Source of the DNA: Rhytidiadelphus loreus
Lineage: Eukaryota > Streptophyta > Bryopsida > Hypnales > Hylocomiaceae
Assembly: GCA_947034895.1 (NCBI GenBank)
Contig: OX344761.1
Coordinates: 32,810,863 to 32,874,862 of the forward strand
DNA: 64,000 nucleotides
Direction: 5' to 3'
Positions within the stretch are counted from its first letter, which is position 1; every line of letters starts with the position of its first letter. Shown here piece by piece: positions 19,222-56,400 of this stretch. The translations under genes and the position numbers were made by a program. The notes under the pieces are model-generated. The model did not search any database, was not told where the DNA came from, and saw nothing but the letters and a program-made list of their open reading frames with translations.

Positions 19222-19557
19222 ATGAAGTTCCTCGAATACACGCCACTCGCTCGGTAACCCTCGGATTCTCCTCAGACTCTCATGATGATTGCCTCTTCTC
19301 GATTTTATGTATCTTGTGTTTGTATATTTCGTGCCGTTTTTATTGGAGATGTTTGGAGATGTTTTTTGTTGCCATGCTGTGGTCTCATCTGATTTTCAAA
19401 CCCTATTGTGGCAGAATAAACTCGTTTCTGTGTCATGTGGATGTGGGAGGATGCATGATTCAAGGTGTCATGGAGGCATACTCTTGTACGTTTTTCAGTC
19501 TTTTCTTGTAGTTTGTTAATTCTAGTTTGGTAGGTGTATGCGGTCTCCTCGCGATCC

Positions 19558-19588
<31 letters not shown>

Positions 19589-22529
19589 TTAAGGTTTGTT
19601 CCTTTTCTGTGACGGTGTTTGTGTGAAATTATAGCGTCTTTTGGTAAGAGAATAAGTTAGGTTTCGTTTTTTACACTTAATGTGTGGTCACTACTTGCGT
19701 TTTTGTTGTCAAGAGGTTTCGGTTTTTGATTGCAATAGCTGTTATATTTTTCTGTGATTGAATTGTAGTGTATTTTGGCAAGAGAGTATGTTAGGTTGAG
19801 TTCACATATTTCGAATTTTAACAATATAAAGAATAGAGTTCGTGTTAACGCTTAGCGTCTTCCATTGTAGTGAGTTTTGAAAAACTGAATTAGCTGGGTT
19901 TTTCGCAGGCAAACTTGCAGGAGTCGATAAAAAGTTGTCGCGGAGTTTGGAGCAAGAGGTTGATTTTTTAAACTTGTTTTGGTCTGTGATCTCATATTTT
20001 AGATCTGATTTGTTGATTTGATGAATTTCTTTGTTGACTGTATTGCTTGATGCAGGTTTAGACTTCTTTCTTTGTTGTTTGTTCTTGCAAATGACTTCAG
20101 CTTCCACGAGGAAGTTCTTTACCTGGACGTGTATCAGTAACTCTTGTATGACCTTTTCACAGGTGGTGGATTCGTTGGCATATTCCCCGTTAGACCTTTC
20201 CACCTCTCCCGTTGGACCGCTCTCTAATACTGCAAGGTAATTGTCTTTTCTTCCAGGTTGTGGAAGAGCTCGAGGGCCGAAGTTTTAATTATTCGTTGGT
20301 ATCCTCGCGGAAGTTCCTGTGCCATGTACATTCATAATTTGGTTGAAGGGAGTGAGGAATTATTGTTCTCATGTTAGAGAATTGTTTCTTTGTGCTTGAC
20401 TGACCGTGGCGTTGTTCAAACGTACAAGGAAGAAAGGATGAGGATGAAGTCGTTCTTAGATTAGCCCCGTGGCTTGTCAATTCCTGACTCCTTCAATGTT
20501 AGCTTGTGTGCGAGTCAAAGCTGGTTCCACGTCTCTTAATTAGTTTTAGTTCCCTCTTTCTGCATTTTCTGTGATTATGTTCACCCCTTTGTTCAATTGT
20601 TTTCAGTCGCAGGACACTGATTCACCTGATTCTGACCTTGAATCATATGTATCCTGACTACGATTTCAGGTAATGGCATCATTCAATGTATGTATCTTTT
20701 ATGGTTTTTCCATTGTGCTCTCCTCGACAATCACCGAAGGAGGCATTTACTATTCAGGTTCTTGTGTTTTATGTGTTTTTAGTCTAGTTTAGGTTAACAT
20801 GGGTACTGTTAGTGCCTACATGGCCGGCAACCCATTTTATTGAAAGGAATTAGGAAGTGGTGTCAATGGTTGACAAGCGGTATATAACCGTTGCTCCTGA
20901 AGGAGCTGAGAGTTCAAGTCTCTCCATTTCCTATTATTTCCTGTGTAGAGTATCGACCAGGTTTGTCGATCAGTTTGTTCATGTTTGGGTAAAGGCGAAA
21001 GTTAAGTAGACTAACATTTTGATATTCTCATGTCCATATACTCACCAGTATGTTGCGACCTCACCACTTTACTAAAGAACATGGAGTTCTGGCTGCAAAG
21101 CAGAAGATTGACGTATCTTTGGTTGAGGCATCGAAGGTAGAAAATGAACTGTTGCCAATCATCTCATTTTGACGTCTTGTCTTATCCTACTCTTTTTCTG
21201 GATCAGATCTGTTGATTAATATACTTGCCAAATCTATTGGATAGTTGTGTTTGTCCATTGAGTAAAGTCTGTCACAGGATTATTGCACCTAATCCTTGGC
21301 AGAATCGTGTCTGGTGTTTTATTTTAAGAAGCATCTTCTTGAAATCTATAAATCAACGCATTTAGACTACATTCAAGTTGTCTGTCGCTGATACTTGATG
21401 CTGGACATTCAAGTTTTCGGAGGGTGGGTTTGTTTTAACACATTTCGAATAACAGATATGGTCTGTAGAATCTGGTGAAGAAACAACATTGATCGACAGC
21501 ATTTGGAGCGGCATTGACCAGGTTAGTGGAACACCGTTTGAGAATGATGGAAGTGATTCGTTGATTCGAACATCGACATGCTTAAAAAATTGCAACGACT
21601 GTCTCCTATCTGAATAAACATGTTCACCGCCTATCAGGTCATCAACTTGGAGGAATGTGAAGTGTACAGCTACTCGCCTGATGCTGAAGGAGATCCTTTT
21701 GCTGACACTGGCAGCATGTGAGTTCCAACAGACATATACGTGCAATATTTTTGAGCTGACAGTATTATACCTCGTCTGTTCTGACCGTTCTTACTTTTCT
21801 AGTGATCATGTTTAGTTTAAGAACTTTTTGAAATTTGCTCTGTGAATATGCATGTGATGTCCTCTAGACTTCGAGGTCAAAGGTTCATGTACTGGAAGCT
21901 GGGCAAATCTTCTGCTTTGAATCTCTAGCGACCATGAATATGGTTGTTTTGAAGTAATATCGAACCATGAAAATGGTTGTGATGCGGTCATACCAGGGCT
22001 ACTACACCAGATCCCATCAGAACTCTGAAGTTAAGCGCCTTTGGGCCGGCATAGTACTGGGAGGGCGACCTCCCGGGAAGTCCCGGTGCTGCATCCAGAT
22101 TTACTTCTTAATGTTGTATGCTTTTCTGTGCCCTTAGATGGTCCTTTAACTACTTCTTCTACAACAAGAAACAAAAGCGTGTTCTCTACTTCAGTTCGCG
22201 ATGCACTAGGTAATCTTCATATTCACTACTTTTAGTAGACACAGCATTGGGTGAAATGCTTTGAACGCTACACGGGCAACACTGCTAGGTTTATCTCTGT
22301 CCTGCATATTTTACTCCATCATCCTCTCTGAGCGACTTTTATGTTCTATTCATATCAATTTCCAGCAGGAGTTGAAGGTCTTTGATAGAGTGGATATTCG
22401 AGCTTTTGAATCAATGTGTTGTTGGGTGGCATTTGTTGCAGCAAGCAATCCATAGACAATTCTTCTAGTGACGATGGATCTGGCGACTGGGACTTAGACT
22501 TCGTGGATGGCATGGACCTTGAAGGCTGA
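19222..22529 (+). CDS. MAF1: MAF1, repressor of RNA polymerase III
   Basis: Ten exons in continuous phase: 19222-19253, 19415-19485, 19909-19958, 20163-20236, 20607-20669, 21049-21136, 21456-21521, 21638-21717, 22138-22209 and 22442-22529. They total 684 nt, giving 227 aa. Family landmarks in order are MKFLEYTPL at the N terminus, EAYSCKLAG.DKKLSRSLEQE across exons 2-3, LTLNHMYPDYDFS in exon 5, ECEVYSYSPDAEGDPF in exon 8, IWSFNYFFYNKKQKRV in exon 9, and an acidic DWDLDFVDGMDLEG tail. MAF1 is the conserved nutrient- and stress-responsive inhibitor that binds Pol III and shuts down 5S rRNA and tRNA synthesis; in plants it is a TOR-linked phosphoprotein. Exon 2 ends at T|GTACGT and exon 3 restores the Cys codon, which fixes that junction. 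Several core positions differ from angiosperm MAF1, for example a divergent ARINSFLCHVDVGG segment. Retention of intron 8 would give TGA immediately after exon 8. Introns 5 and 8 contain Pol III RNA look-alikes. Confidence 0.93.
19558..19587. repeat. (GTT)n microsatellite in MAF1 intron 2
   Basis: About ten uninterrupted GTT units followed by a short T run, inside the intron between MAF1 exons 2 and 3. A simple repeat with no other feature. Confidence 0.9.
20853..20932 (+). tRNA. tRNA-like cloverleaf in MAF1 intron 5 (probably not a standard tRNA)
   Basis: The sequence folds by eye into a class-II tRNA shape. The acceptor arm GGAAGTG (20853-20859) pairs with CATTTCC (20925-20931), and two more pairs extend it outward. 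The D arm is GTCA/TGAC with a short loop holding ATGG. The anticodon stem AGCGG/CCGTT has a 7-nt loop TATATAA. A long variable arm GCTCC/GGAGC has a TGAA loop. The T stem GAGAG/CTCTC has loop TTCAAGT. GTTCAAGTC matches the Pol III B box; the A-box region (TGGTGTCAATGG) is a weaker match. Odd points are A instead of T at position 33, a very short D loop, G at position 8 and no close T-run terminator. It may be a decayed Leu/Ser-type tRNA or a tRNA mimic. It lies in sense orientation in the intron at 20670-21048. Confidence 0.5.
21980..22096 (+). rRNA. 5S rRNA-like sequence in MAF1 intron 8
   Basis: Near full-length 5S rRNA (about 117 nt against the usual ~120) in the same orientation as MAF1. 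Recognisable blocks are GATGCGGTCATACCAG at the 5' end, ATCCCATCAGAACT, the A box GAAGTTAAGCG, the intermediate element ATAGTACTGGGA, the C-box region GACCTCCCGGGAAGTCCC, and GGTGCTGCATCC at the 3' end. Helix I closes (GATGC with GCATC). Relative to the plant consensus, helix II AGCAC/GTGCT has become AGGGC/GCCTT (21995-21999 with 22037-22041), and helix III CGGA/TCCG has become CAGA/TCTG (22008-22011 with 22024-22027). Both remain paired. The bulged T of helix IV is missing. The nearest T run downstream is about 25 nt away. It could be a transposed 5S copy, a Cassandra-type LTR remnant, or a 5S mimic like the regulated exon of plant TFIIIA; the paired changes favour a maintained structure. 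Confidence 0.88.
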
Positions 22530-23454: not shown

Positions 23455-24050
23455 TGGAGAATAGTCATTGGAAGTTGAGCTAATGTGCAAGACCTTTCCT
23501 TATCACACCAAATTTCAAGGATGAATACTTGCTCAAAAAAATTGTAGAGTAATCATTGTAGGTTGAACTGTCGTACAAGACCTTCCCTTTTCGCACACAA
23601 TTCCAAGGATGAACACTTACTCAAAAAAAAATAAGAGCAAGTCATCGGAGGTTGAACTTATTGTGCAAGACCTTCCTTTTTTCACATCTAATTCCAAGGA
23701 TTCACACTTGCTCAAAAAACAAACTAAGAGCAAGTCATTGGAGGTTGAACTTATTCTGCAATACCTTCCCTTTTCACATTGAATTCCAAGGATTCACACT
23801 TGCTCAAAAAAAACTAAGAGCAAGTCATTGGAAGATGAACTTATTATGCAAGACCTTCCCTTTTTCACACCCAGTTCCAAGGATTCACACTTGCTCAAAA
23901 AAACACCTAAGAGCAAGTCATTGGAAGTTGAACTTATTATGCAAGACTTTACCTTTTCACACAAACTTCTAGTGATGTACACTTGTCGGTTGAACTACTA
24001 GGGATAAGGACCTTCCCTTTTTCACACCAAATTCCAAAGATGAACATTTG
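23455..24050. repeat. Tandem array of ~90-bp units
   Basis: Six to seven copies of a unit carrying '.gcaagtcattggaggttgaa', '.gcaagaccttccctttt.cacac', 'ttccaaggat..acacttgctcaaaaaa'. Successive starts are near 23459, 23550, 23636, 23725, 23817 and 23910. The unit length varies from 86 to 93 bp, so frames are not preserved. It is non-coding. Confidence 0.85.
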
Positions 24051-53400: not shown

Positions 53401-56400
53401 ATTTGTTTTTTAGTATGTCTTTAGACCTATTTAGTATTGGTATCATGTATCAAATTTCATCAAAATTGTCAAATTTGAAGTGGGTATCAATTTAATATAT
53501 AGCACAATAATAATTTTTTCCCAAAATTGTAGTGAGAATTTGAGATTGTGGTATTTTATGATAATAAGTGATAATTATTTGTGTAGTCGTTAAAATTTGG
53601 AATTCTCTATAAGTGATAACTTTTAAATATTGAATGAATTTAAAAATTCTAATTATTCAATCCTAAAGTCTCATTGTTCCTACAAGAAACAAAATTGATT
53701 TTGGGTAGGCTCGTATAATTTCAATTTACAACACAATTTTATGAAAAAAATTCCAAACTTGCAGTTTTTCAACAACTTCAAGCAATGATTTTGAACTTCA
53801 AGCAATAATTCAAAATCAGTAATGTACTAGAGAACACATTGTGTGGGGCACATTCTATGCAAGGACAAGTCCTTGCACTAGTAGAAAGCCTTGTTTAATT
53901 AGATGTTCTTGCATCAAAGTTGACAGATTTTCTTAAGCATCCAATGTAGCATCTTCATGTGTTTATGTCAACAATGACATCCAATGTAGCATAAAGATGT
54001 TACATTGGATGTCATTGTTGACATAAACACATGAAGATGTTACATTGGATGCTTAAGAAAATCCGTCAACTTTGACACAAGAACATCTAATTAAACAAGG
54101 CTTTCTTCTAGTGTTGGGCTACCCAACAAGGTGAACTCATGGGTGAGTTTTTGTGCAAAATGCGCCCCACATAGCACATTCCCTAGCATGAGGAGCAGTT
54201 TTCTGATGTTCCCGCAACATTCACACAACAAAATTGAACCTTAGTGGTAGAATTAGACCCTACTATTCATTTTGCACTCTCATTGTGTTTAAAAACGTCT
54301 GAATTAGCAAGGACTTCTTTTAACATCAAGGATCCATAGGACAAATGGGCCTAAAGACCACAAGTCTCCTATGAAATGAATGAGTCTAGAATAGCTTAGA
54401 TGCATAAATTGTAGGTGGTAAAGTAGCACTTATGGTAGGGAAACTATTGAGAACAATCCAACTATATGGCCCAAACATGTCACGAACTTTAGGGGAACAT
54501 CCAAAGAACAATGGCCAATCCATTCTTCAAGAGTTGTTCTATCTCTTAGGCTACTTGGAGCTTACAATGTGTAAGAAAACACCACAGAAATTAGAGATTT
54601 TGAAGTTTTGAAATTTTGAAATTTTGATTTTGGACTTGTCAATTATAATTACAAACTTCAATCTACCATCCGGATTACTGAGATTTTGAACTATGTGGTG
54701 GCAAAATGTGTTAAAAAAATCAGATAATGTATTGTCAAATCTTGGAACATAGTCACATTGTAAGATTTTATAGGATGTGTTCCATATCCTAGGTTGACTT
54801 GAAAATTGGTGGAGATGAAATTTGAAGTCCATAGTGTAAAAATTGACCACAAGAGGCAATCAAAGCCGTCTGAAATTCTTGGGTAAGACCAAAAAAACCC
54901 TTTTTACTCAGAATGTCATCATCTTTCAATCCATATAGTTAAACTTCAAGAAATTTTTACCACATCCTCTCATATAAGTGTAGTACAAGATCCTACAATA
55001 AGATTCTAAAAAAACTCATCTTGTACATTTTTCAATAAATGGCAAGTTTTCAATGTTTTTTGGGGTAGAAAATCCTAGAAAGTGCCTAGAGACTGTAGGG
55101 ATTAACTTGATCTTAATTCTTTTAACTTTCTACTAATAAATTCCTACACTATTGGCCTATTGGGCATAGAACATTAATTTTAAATCTTTAAATAGGTCAT
55201 GCTTGAAGAAGAACAAAAAAAACATGCAATAGATGAAGAAGAAGCAAAGAAAAAAAGTGAAGAAGATGCTATCTTGCTAGCCACACAAGCGGCACAAGAA
55301 AAAGAAGAGGTTGAAAAACAACAAATCCTCAAAGAAGAACAAAAAGCAACACATGATGCATGGCTTCTTCAACAACAAGAAATGAAGGAAAAAAATAGGG
55401 TTGCTTTTGATTTGATACAAGCTCATGAACATGAATGCTATTTGATGTATTTTAACGACAAAGGAGATGAAATCAATAAAGAATATGACTCTTGGCAGGT
55501 GAATTTTTTCATGGTTTAGAATTTGTTTCTTCCAAAATTTTGAAGAAAATCATTGCCGAAGTTTAGAGAAAAAATGCTTTGTGGAAAAAATAGGTCTTAG
55601 TTAATATTAAAGAATTAAAAAAAGACTTAATATTCCTAGTTATTAAGCGATTGATTTGATTGGCCTTATTGAAAAGAATTTAATATCTCTAGAATTAGTG
55701 AAGAACAGTGTTTGTTTTGGTAAAAGATTAACTTAAGGTAAAAAAAAAACATTTATATAATCCTTCCAAGATTGGCAAAAAGATATGACATCCAATTTGG
55801 TCTTTTTTGTCATTTAGTAATAAATAATATATATATTCAATATTGAAAAAAATCATATAACTACATTACATTTAAAAAATAATATTGCACTATGATATTT
55901 GATTACATGTACTTCCATCAAAAATACTAGGTGAGTAGTCATTTTTTAATCTTGCAAATTCTTTTGATCCCCAATCAACTTAATATTATGCTTGTAATAG
56001 TTTTTAAAATTTTAGAAAATTAATTTTTAAATCCAAAGTATTATGCACAAGTTGAAGAATTTGATTCTTACAAATCTATATACCTTATGTTTTGTTTCAA
56101 AAAACAAAATCTTTACATTGTATTAACAATGGCAGATTGACATTCAAGCAAAGCATAAGAGGAGGTGGCAAAAACACTACAACTTTTGTTTTGACATTAT
56201 TTTGCAGGTTCTTTGCTATTCCTATTTTTCTTGCAATAGATTTTTATTTGTACTATTATTTGCAATCAATATTAATTACAAGTATTTTGACTTCTACACA
56301 CTTCTCACTAAATTTTATGCTTGAAGTTTTTTCTAATACATGCTTGTTGCAAGATGATTTCTCATTCAATCTTATTTTTCTTGGATTGGAGACCAATTTT

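Follow-up and report, generated by a model that had tools for sequence, protein, structure and literature searches.

A complete 5S rRNA-like sequence in intron 8 of MAF1 in the moss Rhytidiadelphus loreus and its possible role as a 5S look-alike

The MAF1 gene of Rhytidiadelphus loreus holds a complete 5S rRNA-like element in its intron 8, in sense orientation to the gene. MAF1 is the repressor of Pol III, the enzyme making 5S rRNA and tRNA. The window, i.e., the whole stretch of 64,000 nucleotides analysed, had been described before from its letters only, and this sequence-only reading had pointed out a complete 5S rRNA-like sequence at 21980..22096, between MAF1 exons 8 and 9. The covariance check which it proposed was run with cmscan and gave no poor score: the element matched RF00001 over model positions 1-120 of 120 with 99.6 bits (E 1.9e-21; gathering score 38), confirming the element with its end at 22097 instead. 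It was the sole Rfam match at gathering level across the 64 kb. Six positions of the Rfam alignment, i.e., three pairs, were non-standard in Rfam's own structure. We consider it close to an even chance, if slightly short of it, that the element in MAF1 pre-mRNA serves as a 5S look-alike, which would be bound by a 5S-binding protein, e.g., RPL5, and would slow the removal of intron 8.

The MAF1 gene and the surroundings of the 5S element

The gene was resolved into ten exons (Table 1) and nine introns, all GT-AG and amounting to 2,624 bases in total. Joined exons gave a protein of 227 amino acids with a terminal stop. A shorter composite assembled by eye was the query for the Pfam match to PF09174 (E 2.8e-44). 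The same composite could be aligned with 14 related MAF1 sequences, isoforms among them, and the nearest named relative was Ceratodon purpureus. The exon model, the domain and the alignment together bear out MAF1 as the host, and the exon/intron model agrees with the earlier placing of the element in sense between exons 8 and 9.

The 5S element is separated from the 3' splice site by 40 nt, which, read directly, likely comprise the branch site and a pyrimidine tract. On its other side lies an imperfect, strongly paired repeat, drawn either as two small hairpins or as one long hairpin. This stretch was picked by eye and contains the direct repeat D2; its fold z was -4.05, and none of 200 shuffles equalled it. 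When intron 8 is kept in the mRNA, the reading frame, as read from the sequence, ends at the second codon past the junction.

Table 1. Features of the MAF1 locus, in positions of the window
Feature	Position	Strand	Remark
MAF1 gene (coding span and stop)	19222..22529	+	10 exons
MAF1 exons 1-5	19222-19253, 19415-19485, 19909-19958, 20163-20236, 20607-20669	+	exon joining
MAF1 exons 6-10	21049-21136, 21456-21521, 21638-21717, 22138-22209, 22442-22529	+	exon joining
MAF1 intron 5	20670..21048	+	GT-AG; houses tRNA-like element
tRNA-like cloverleaf, long variable arm	20852..20933	+	fold prediction, RF00005; in intron 5
MAF1 intron 8	21718..22137	+	420 nt; GT-AG; houses 5S element
Imperfect repeat, strongly paired	21926..21980	+	closes at first base of 5S element
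Complete 5S rRNA-like element	21980..22097	+	RF00001 and 97% to copy consensus
Stretch between 5S element and 3' splice site	22098..22137	+	40 nt; read directly

Scattered 5S copies and the changes in the MAF1 copy

Plant-type 5S-like sequences were found at 14 scattered places in the genome, MAF1 included, several of them being fragments or clearly decayed. The scattered copies, the changes in the C-box region and the tRNA-like element of intron 5 described below go beyond the sequence-only reading. Genuine rDNA 5S, which was approached via a 5.8S search, was not found in the genome, and therefore a consensus of the scattered copies, made by eye, was used as the yardstick in place of rDNA 5S. 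What the 5.8S search turned up was a broken piece of rDNA on C5 and a contig of 5 kb, perhaps from a contaminating alga, whose 18S contains a group I intron with a second one following it.

Among the 14 rows the MAF1 copy was the closest to the consensus; the next full-length rows had 93, 92, 91, and 87% identity, and of the two parts of a split copy one had 93% and the other 92%. Decay by C-to-T and G-to-A changes accounted for 9/9 and 20/24 substitutions in two other copies, and none was seen in the MAF1 copy compared with the copy consensus. The copy at C3:34.3 Mb carried two substitutions and a 13-nt deletion, nothing more. At ten loci, compared with 1.9-kb flanks, similarity among copies stopped within approximately 10 nt of the 5S borders, except between the two paralogues of TFIIIA and where repeats matched at different offsets. 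A Cassandra-type LTR insertion was rejected for this reason. The Cassandra TRIM also carries a 5S-like sequence, which is located within its LTRs, and reports of the family come from monocots, dicots, and ferns (PMC10853983).

Seven copies were tested for target-site duplications. A clear one of 16 nt was present at a single copy, more diverged than that of MAF1, which means that 5S copies do insert. None was found at five others or at the MAF1 copy, where the best flanking repeat was 4 nt and 98% of controls were as good; a young retroposed copy is thus unsupported at MAF1. The MAF1 copy resembles dispersed or retroposed 5S, i.e., single scattered sequences whose flanks are unrelated and one of which has a duplication, but differs in being intronic, sense, without duplication and the least changed. 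We infer that it shares its origin with the scattered copies. Some of these look like genes, since a TATA-like element was present at -34 to -22 in two of six copies (155 of 13,860 positions in the control, the pattern having been chosen after being seen) and one copy had evolved with two compensated pairs. Around five other copies, inspected for ORFs and Pfam domains, a DUF7733 reading frame was located approximately 0.9 kb upstream of one copy, and 19 of 20 ORFs, taken from at least 70, had no Pfam match.

The MAF1 copy deviated from the consensus at four positions, one deletion and three substitutions: a bulge base was deleted, the tetraloop was changed with GNRA kept, an A-U pair became G-U, and one change fell outside pairs. 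All 36 predicted pairs of the consensus stayed unbroken, a weak result, as with three substitutions 24% of random draws did equally well. The counting, which took in six of the 14 places, is also lenient because C-to-T changes often leave G-U pairs, and even a decayed copy, L026, had fewer broken pairs than random (4 vs. 8.06, fraction 0.039). The changes in the MAF1 copy are too few to show selection. The positions which we take to be the A box were unchanged, while those presumed to be the C box had one base deleted and one substituted. The hairpin at the C-box region was more stable as RNA despite the lost base. Positions 18-70, the 53 nt in the middle on the RPL5 side, were identical to the consensus; a review assigns RPL5 to helix II and loop C of the 5S rRNA (PMC6164485). 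Folding gave -44.9 kcal/mol for the 5S fold of the MAF1 copy vs. -45.7 kcal/mol for an alternative. Pair probabilities were 0.22-0.41 in helices II-III (0.57-0.98 in the consensus) and 0.35-0.38 in helix V (0.90-0.98 in the consensus). By predicted folding energy alone, the MAF1 copy is thus divided between two folds, of which only one is that of 5S.

The tRNA-like element of intron 5 and the TFIIIA mimics

In intron 5 a cloverleaf was predicted, with an RF00005 score of 27.7 bits (gathering 29; E 4.9e-4 for 221 bases); it was not among the matches of the Rfam scan of 64 kb. The cloverleaf had a fold z of -5.07, equalled by 0/200 shuffles, and the genome holds one match to it. It was not reported by ARAGORN at default settings and was among 3 hits in 64 kb at -ps90. 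At -ps80 there were 35 hits in 64 kb vs. 32.7 expected from shuffles, and ARAGORN alone is therefore no proof. Akkuratov is said to have described CPIR-1, a structured RNA in plant MAF1 introns, in 2014. Structured RNAs in such introns, one of them tRNA-like, have been reported as CPIR-1 and the “MAF1 motif” (PMC12218528), the motif for flowering plants (Sack 2025, PMC12218528). Compared by description only, the element of intron 5, a tRNA-like fold within a MAF1 intron, is probably CPIR-1 in its moss form. A hairpin at 20799-20835, 16 nt upstream of the cloverleaf, was examined as the published motif, which lies about 10 nt upstream of CPIR-1; its fold z was only -1.44, with 15/200 shuffles as good. 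Neither CPIR-1 nor the motif is 5S-like, in which they differ from the element of intron 8. The authors of the survey put the MAF1-intron structures in the class that lacks an association with NMD-linked splice sites, refrained from a cis-regulatory label and gave the tRNA-like one no function (PMC12218528).

Two TFIIIA paralogues in this genome bear a diverged 5S mimic (P5SM), and inside both there is a donor-like GTAAGA, which we take as the putative donor used there. Plant TFIIIA pre-mRNA contains a 5S-derived regulated exon bound by ribosomal protein L5. The MAF1 element is like P5SM in being a sense 5S-derived RNA in the pre-mRNA of a gene controlling 5S synthesis, with the region of helices II-III and loops B-C retained. 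There are also differences: TFIIIA is an activator and MAF1 a repressor, and the MAF1 copy comprises the complete 5S including helix I, with 97% identity to the local consensus and lacking an internal donor-like site. RPL5 binding promotes removal of the TFIIIA mimic, according to the review (PMC6164485).

Possible roles of the intronic elements

If the intron 8 RNA folds as a 5S look-alike in MAF1 pre-mRNA, RPL5 left free when 5S is scarce would bind it a short way upstream of the probable branch site. The bound intron would be retained and the reading frame would end immediately; with less MAF1, Pol III would then produce more 5S. This direction is guessed from homeostasis and runs counter to the published effect of RPL5 on the TFIIIA element. 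Sensing of free L5, TFIIIA or 5S RNP by MAF1 pre-mRNA had already been suggested in the sequence-only reading; what supports it is the host gene, the sense orientation, the whole 5S with its unbroken pairs and unchanged 53 nt, and the stop upon retention, and what weakens it are the scattered copies, the absence of a TFIIIA-type donor-like site, and the folding energy split between two folds.

The same element may be a 5S copy that inserted by chance in intron 8 and was tolerated away from the splice signals, with no role, to which we give somewhat less than an even chance. The scattered copies, several fragmentary or decayed, make intron capture of one an available neutral route; the 16-nt duplication shows that insertion happens, and the last 40 nt of the intron could still plausibly provide the branch site and the pyrimidine tract. 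In addition, the changes in the MAF1 copy are too few for selection to show, and the C3:34.3 Mb copy has just two substitutions apart from its deletion. Against such a passenger speaks the coincidence of the host gene, as only 4.5e-5 sense copies would be expected in MAF1 introns by chance (14 copies, 407 Mb, 2,624 intron bases), a figure that overstates the case because the site was selected as striking. The MAF1 copy also lacks the C-to-T decay, and it lacks a duplication that a more diverged copy still has, although five others lack one too. Moreover, the same gene has a second look-alike of a Pol III product, by fold prediction, in intron 5.

Two further explanations concern use of the element as a gene or as an exon. 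It is improbable that it is a present or recent transcribed 5S gene, with Pol III activity interfering with MAF1 transcription. The A-box region is intact and some scattered copies are gene-like, but a working gene is disfavoured by the base lost and the base substituted in the C-box region, by the absence of TATAWA at -34 to -22, where there is a weak TAATAT only, and by the first TTTT, at 22122, starting 25 nt past the 5S end. Slightly less probable still is splicing of the element as a P5SM-like poison exon. It has the TFIIIA precedent, twice in this genome, and an AG inside the 5S (21996) scored 8.5 vs. 7.6 for the true acceptor; the crude acceptor model, built on nine introns, cannot decide, since in leave-one-out scoring the true sites ranged from -6.4 to 9.1. 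The poison exon is disfavoured, as the MAF1 copy has no GTAAG-type donor where both TFIIIA mimics have GTAAGA.

Returning to the 5S look-alike bound by RPL5, precedents by analogy are the TFIIIA mimics of the same genome, the tRNA-like element of intron 5, and the published RNAs in MAF1. With two look-alikes of Pol III products in a Pol III repressor, a product-sensing role and a chance passenger appear roughly equally likely. Unspliced MAF1 RNA would display both look-alikes, and it is conceivable, though rather unlikely, that the pre-mRNA gauges the output of Pol III through two channels, in which an ancient tRNA-like and a 5S-like element would bind carriers or processing factors of free tRNA and free 5S and set MAF1 splicing, the repressor thus responding to mimics of both main Pol III products. 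If the 5S copy is functional, the repressor MAF1 and the 5S activator TFIIIA would be set by the same RNA shape, one per gene. The tRNA-like element would follow the same logic for tRNA, which would be a reason for keeping a tRNA-like intron sequence in plant MAF1 genes. Only few structured RNAs controlling plant splicing, P5SM included, were named by the 2025 survey (PMC12218528). Structured RNAs in plant MAF1 introns, one of them tRNA-like, and the 5S mimic in TFIIIA are already known; new here is the predicted tRNA-like cloverleaf in intron 5 of a MAF1 gene that also bears a 5S.

A 5S rRNA sequence in intron 8 of MAF1

The window is plant nuclear sequence, part of a 407-Mb assembly. The protein of its MAF1 gene aligned with 14 related sequences, isoforms included, and a shorter composite of it matched PF09174 (E 2.8e-44). 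Among the best 120 of 366 matches, the nearest named relatives were mosses, i.e., Ceratodon purpureus (70%), Physcomitrium patens (67%) and Sphagnum compactum (61%), and the sequence is accordingly read as that of a moss. A tandem array lies a short way downstream of the gene.

The sequence-only reading had placed a complete 5S-like sequence, in sense, inside a MAF1 intron, and the covariance model RF00001 bore this out, matching over its full length with 99.6 bits, which excludes a chance resemblance to 5S. The element was the sole Rfam match at gathering level in the 64-kb window. Three pairs of the Rfam 5S structure were flagged as non-standard in the RF00001 alignment. The 3' splice site of the intron lies 40 nt past the end of the element. 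Immediately 5' of it is a strongly paired imperfect repeat; this stretch, picked by eye, folded with z -4.05 (none of 200 shuffles as good), and its fold closes on the element's first base. Conceivably the two form a single domain.

Positions of the features discussed; plain numbers refer to the window
Feature	Position	Strand	Remarks
MAF1 gene	19222-22529	+	10 exons, 9 GT-AG introns, 227-aa protein
tRNA-like cloverleaf, long variable arm	20852-20933		MAF1 intron 5; RF00005, fold z
MAF1 intron 8	21718-22137	+	host of the 5S element
Imperfect repeat	21926-21980		5' of the 5S element
5S element (MAF1 copy)	21980-22097	+	RF00001 model position 1 to 120
Tandem array	23463-23985		period 93, 5.8 copies
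Strongest plus-strand fold	53941-54022	+	z -10.4
A17G	MAF1 copy vs consensus		A-U pair to G-U
A71C	MAF1 copy vs consensus		unpaired position
U88C	MAF1 copy vs consensus		tetraloop, still GNRA
Deletion	MAF1 copy vs consensus		bulged U of helix IV
P5SM elements	L019:2043-2160, L023:2030-2148		both with GTAAGA donor-like site
Scattered copy L012	L012:1973-2092 (C4:20865372-20865491)		10 substitutions
Scattered copy L016	C2:84389811-84389929		16-nt target-site duplication, one mismatch

Scattered 5S copies in the genome

Genome-wide, at least 16 RF00001 matches exceeded the cut-off, a lower bound since scoring covered 47 of the 10,133 first-look candidates. By their sequences we sorted them into eight scattered plant-type copies (the MAF1 copy included), two in TFIIIA paralogues, two organelle-like ones, which are identical to each other, and four bacterial-looking ones on small contigs. 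Bacterial-looking 5S marks the small contigs C330, C78, C105 and C63; C484 carries an 18S and two group I introns. These contigs probably stem from associated organisms. A search of the assembly for the genuine rDNA 5S did not turn it up. A DNA search with the by-eye consensus of the scattered copies returned 14 rows from 13 places, one copy being split by an insertion; with one place found by RF00001 alone, 14 5S-like places resulted, of which several are fragments. Nearest to the consensus is the MAF1 copy (97%), followed by full-length rows at 93, 92, 91 and 87%.

Beyond approximately 10 nt from the 5S, the flanks of the copies were unrelated, except for the two TFIIIA paralogues and for repeat matches at other offsets. 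The two bases before the first 5S base are CG in several scattered copies and TG in the MAF1 copy. Of seven copies tested, one is flanked by a 16-nt duplication containing a single mismatch (0 of 300 controls); the MAF1 copy and the five others have none. The copy carrying it, L016, was likely retroposed. In the L012 copy all substitutions are transitions, and TTTT follows it; no pair is broken (0.7% of random draws as good) and two, 32/45 and 83/93, are compensated, so that its sequence may represent a 5S variant under structural selection.

Possible roles of the MAF1 copy

The MAF1 copy departs from the consensus by three substitutions and one deletion. None of the 36 consensus-predicted pairs is broken, as in 24% of random draws of three substitutions, by a count so lenient that even a decayed 5S copy has fewer broken pairs than random draws. 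C-to-T and G-to-A together account for 9/9 changes in one other copy and 20/24 in another, and for none of the three substitutions here. Positions 18 to 70 (53 nt) are identical to the consensus, and RPL5 is described as contacting 5S at helix II and loop C (PMC6164485). By folding energy, an alternative fold (-45.7) has a slight edge over the 5S fold (-44.9). Relative to the consensus, pair probabilities fall from 0.57-0.98 to 0.22-0.41 in helices II-III, and from 0.90-0.98 to 0.35-0.38 in helix V.

One could regard the element as a Pol III gene nested in MAF1. TATA-like elements occurred at -34 to -22 in 2 of 6 copies vs 155 of 13,860 control positions, with a pattern chosen post hoc. Loci L010 and L015 have such elements 5' of their 5S copies, in unrelated flanks and at a spacing which we take to be that of plant 5S genes; scattered copies of this kind may be, or may have been, transcribed 5S genes. 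Against a nested gene, the MAF1 copy has at -34 to -22 no TATA-like element but a weak TAATAT, has lost one base in what is presumably its C-box region, and is followed by its first TTTT only at 22122. A working Pol III gene is thus unlikely, and we assign the nested gene a low probability.

The element could also be an exon like P5SM, the 5S mimic in plant TFIIIA pre-mRNA. This genome has two paralogues, with 85% identity across 2.7 kb, in which a diverged mimic of 5S is lodged between exons for zinc fingers. TFIIIA identity was tested for one, L023, which matched zf-C2H2 and whose best solved relative was TFIIIA (E 9.3e-21), presumably that of Xenopus. In both mimics GTAAGA, a putative donor in use, replaces 5S CCCGGGAA. 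Such a donor is missing from the MAF1 copy, which makes a P5SM-like exon very improbable; therefore, any action must differ from that of P5SM.

A splicing role for the element is proposed tentatively, with a probability just short of one half. Most simply, a protein such as RPL5, bound beside the putative branch site of intron 8, would act through the 5S element and slow intron removal, and retention would then expose the stop which, on reading the sequence, comes at the second codon. In TFIIIA, RPL5 binding is described as promoting removal of the mimic (PMC6164485), whereas this model requires the opposite direction, which is a guess. The weakened predicted 5S fold counts against the model unless the protein selects the 5S fold. 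That the element is instead a passenger is nearly as probable. By chance, 4.5e-5 sense copies would be expected in MAF1 introns (14 copies, 2,624 intron bases), a figure weakened because the finding was selected for being striking. A product look-alike inside the pre-mRNA of a regulator is already known from P5SM; in MAF1, mimicry of 5S would add a new form to this kind. No report of a 5S sequence in a MAF1 gene was found among titles and abstract openings of the open-licence papers retrieved on MAF1 and on the TFIIIA mimic.

A tRNA-like element in intron 5

A weak, wrong-strand Rfam match (RF04351, E 0.18) pointed to the cloverleaf in intron 5. RF00005 gave it 27.7 bits, a little under the gathering score (29); E was 4.9e-4 over 221 bases chosen post hoc, or approximately 0.14 for the whole 64 kb by proportion. 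The cloverleaf was not listed in two other Rfam scans nor reported by ARAGORN at default settings. Its fold (z -5.07, none of 200 shuffles as good) ranks tenth among 2,132 plus-strand stretches scanned, nine, overlapping or separate, folding better relative to shuffles; the strongest lies far downstream. In a genome search that skips very common words it matched only itself, so an origin as a recent copy of a tRNA looks unlikely.

Akkuratov in 2014 reportedly found a tRNA-like intron sequence in all plants studied, moss included. For most of the flowering plants they surveyed, Sack et al. (2025; PMC12218528) describe a "MAF1 motif" in introns of MAF1, with the tRNA-like CPIR-1 of Akkuratov approximately 10 nt downstream, and they do not class it as cis-regulatory. 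Because this published tRNA-like element is reported for plant MAF1 introns, the intron 5 element is, by analogy, probably the moss form of CPIR-1.
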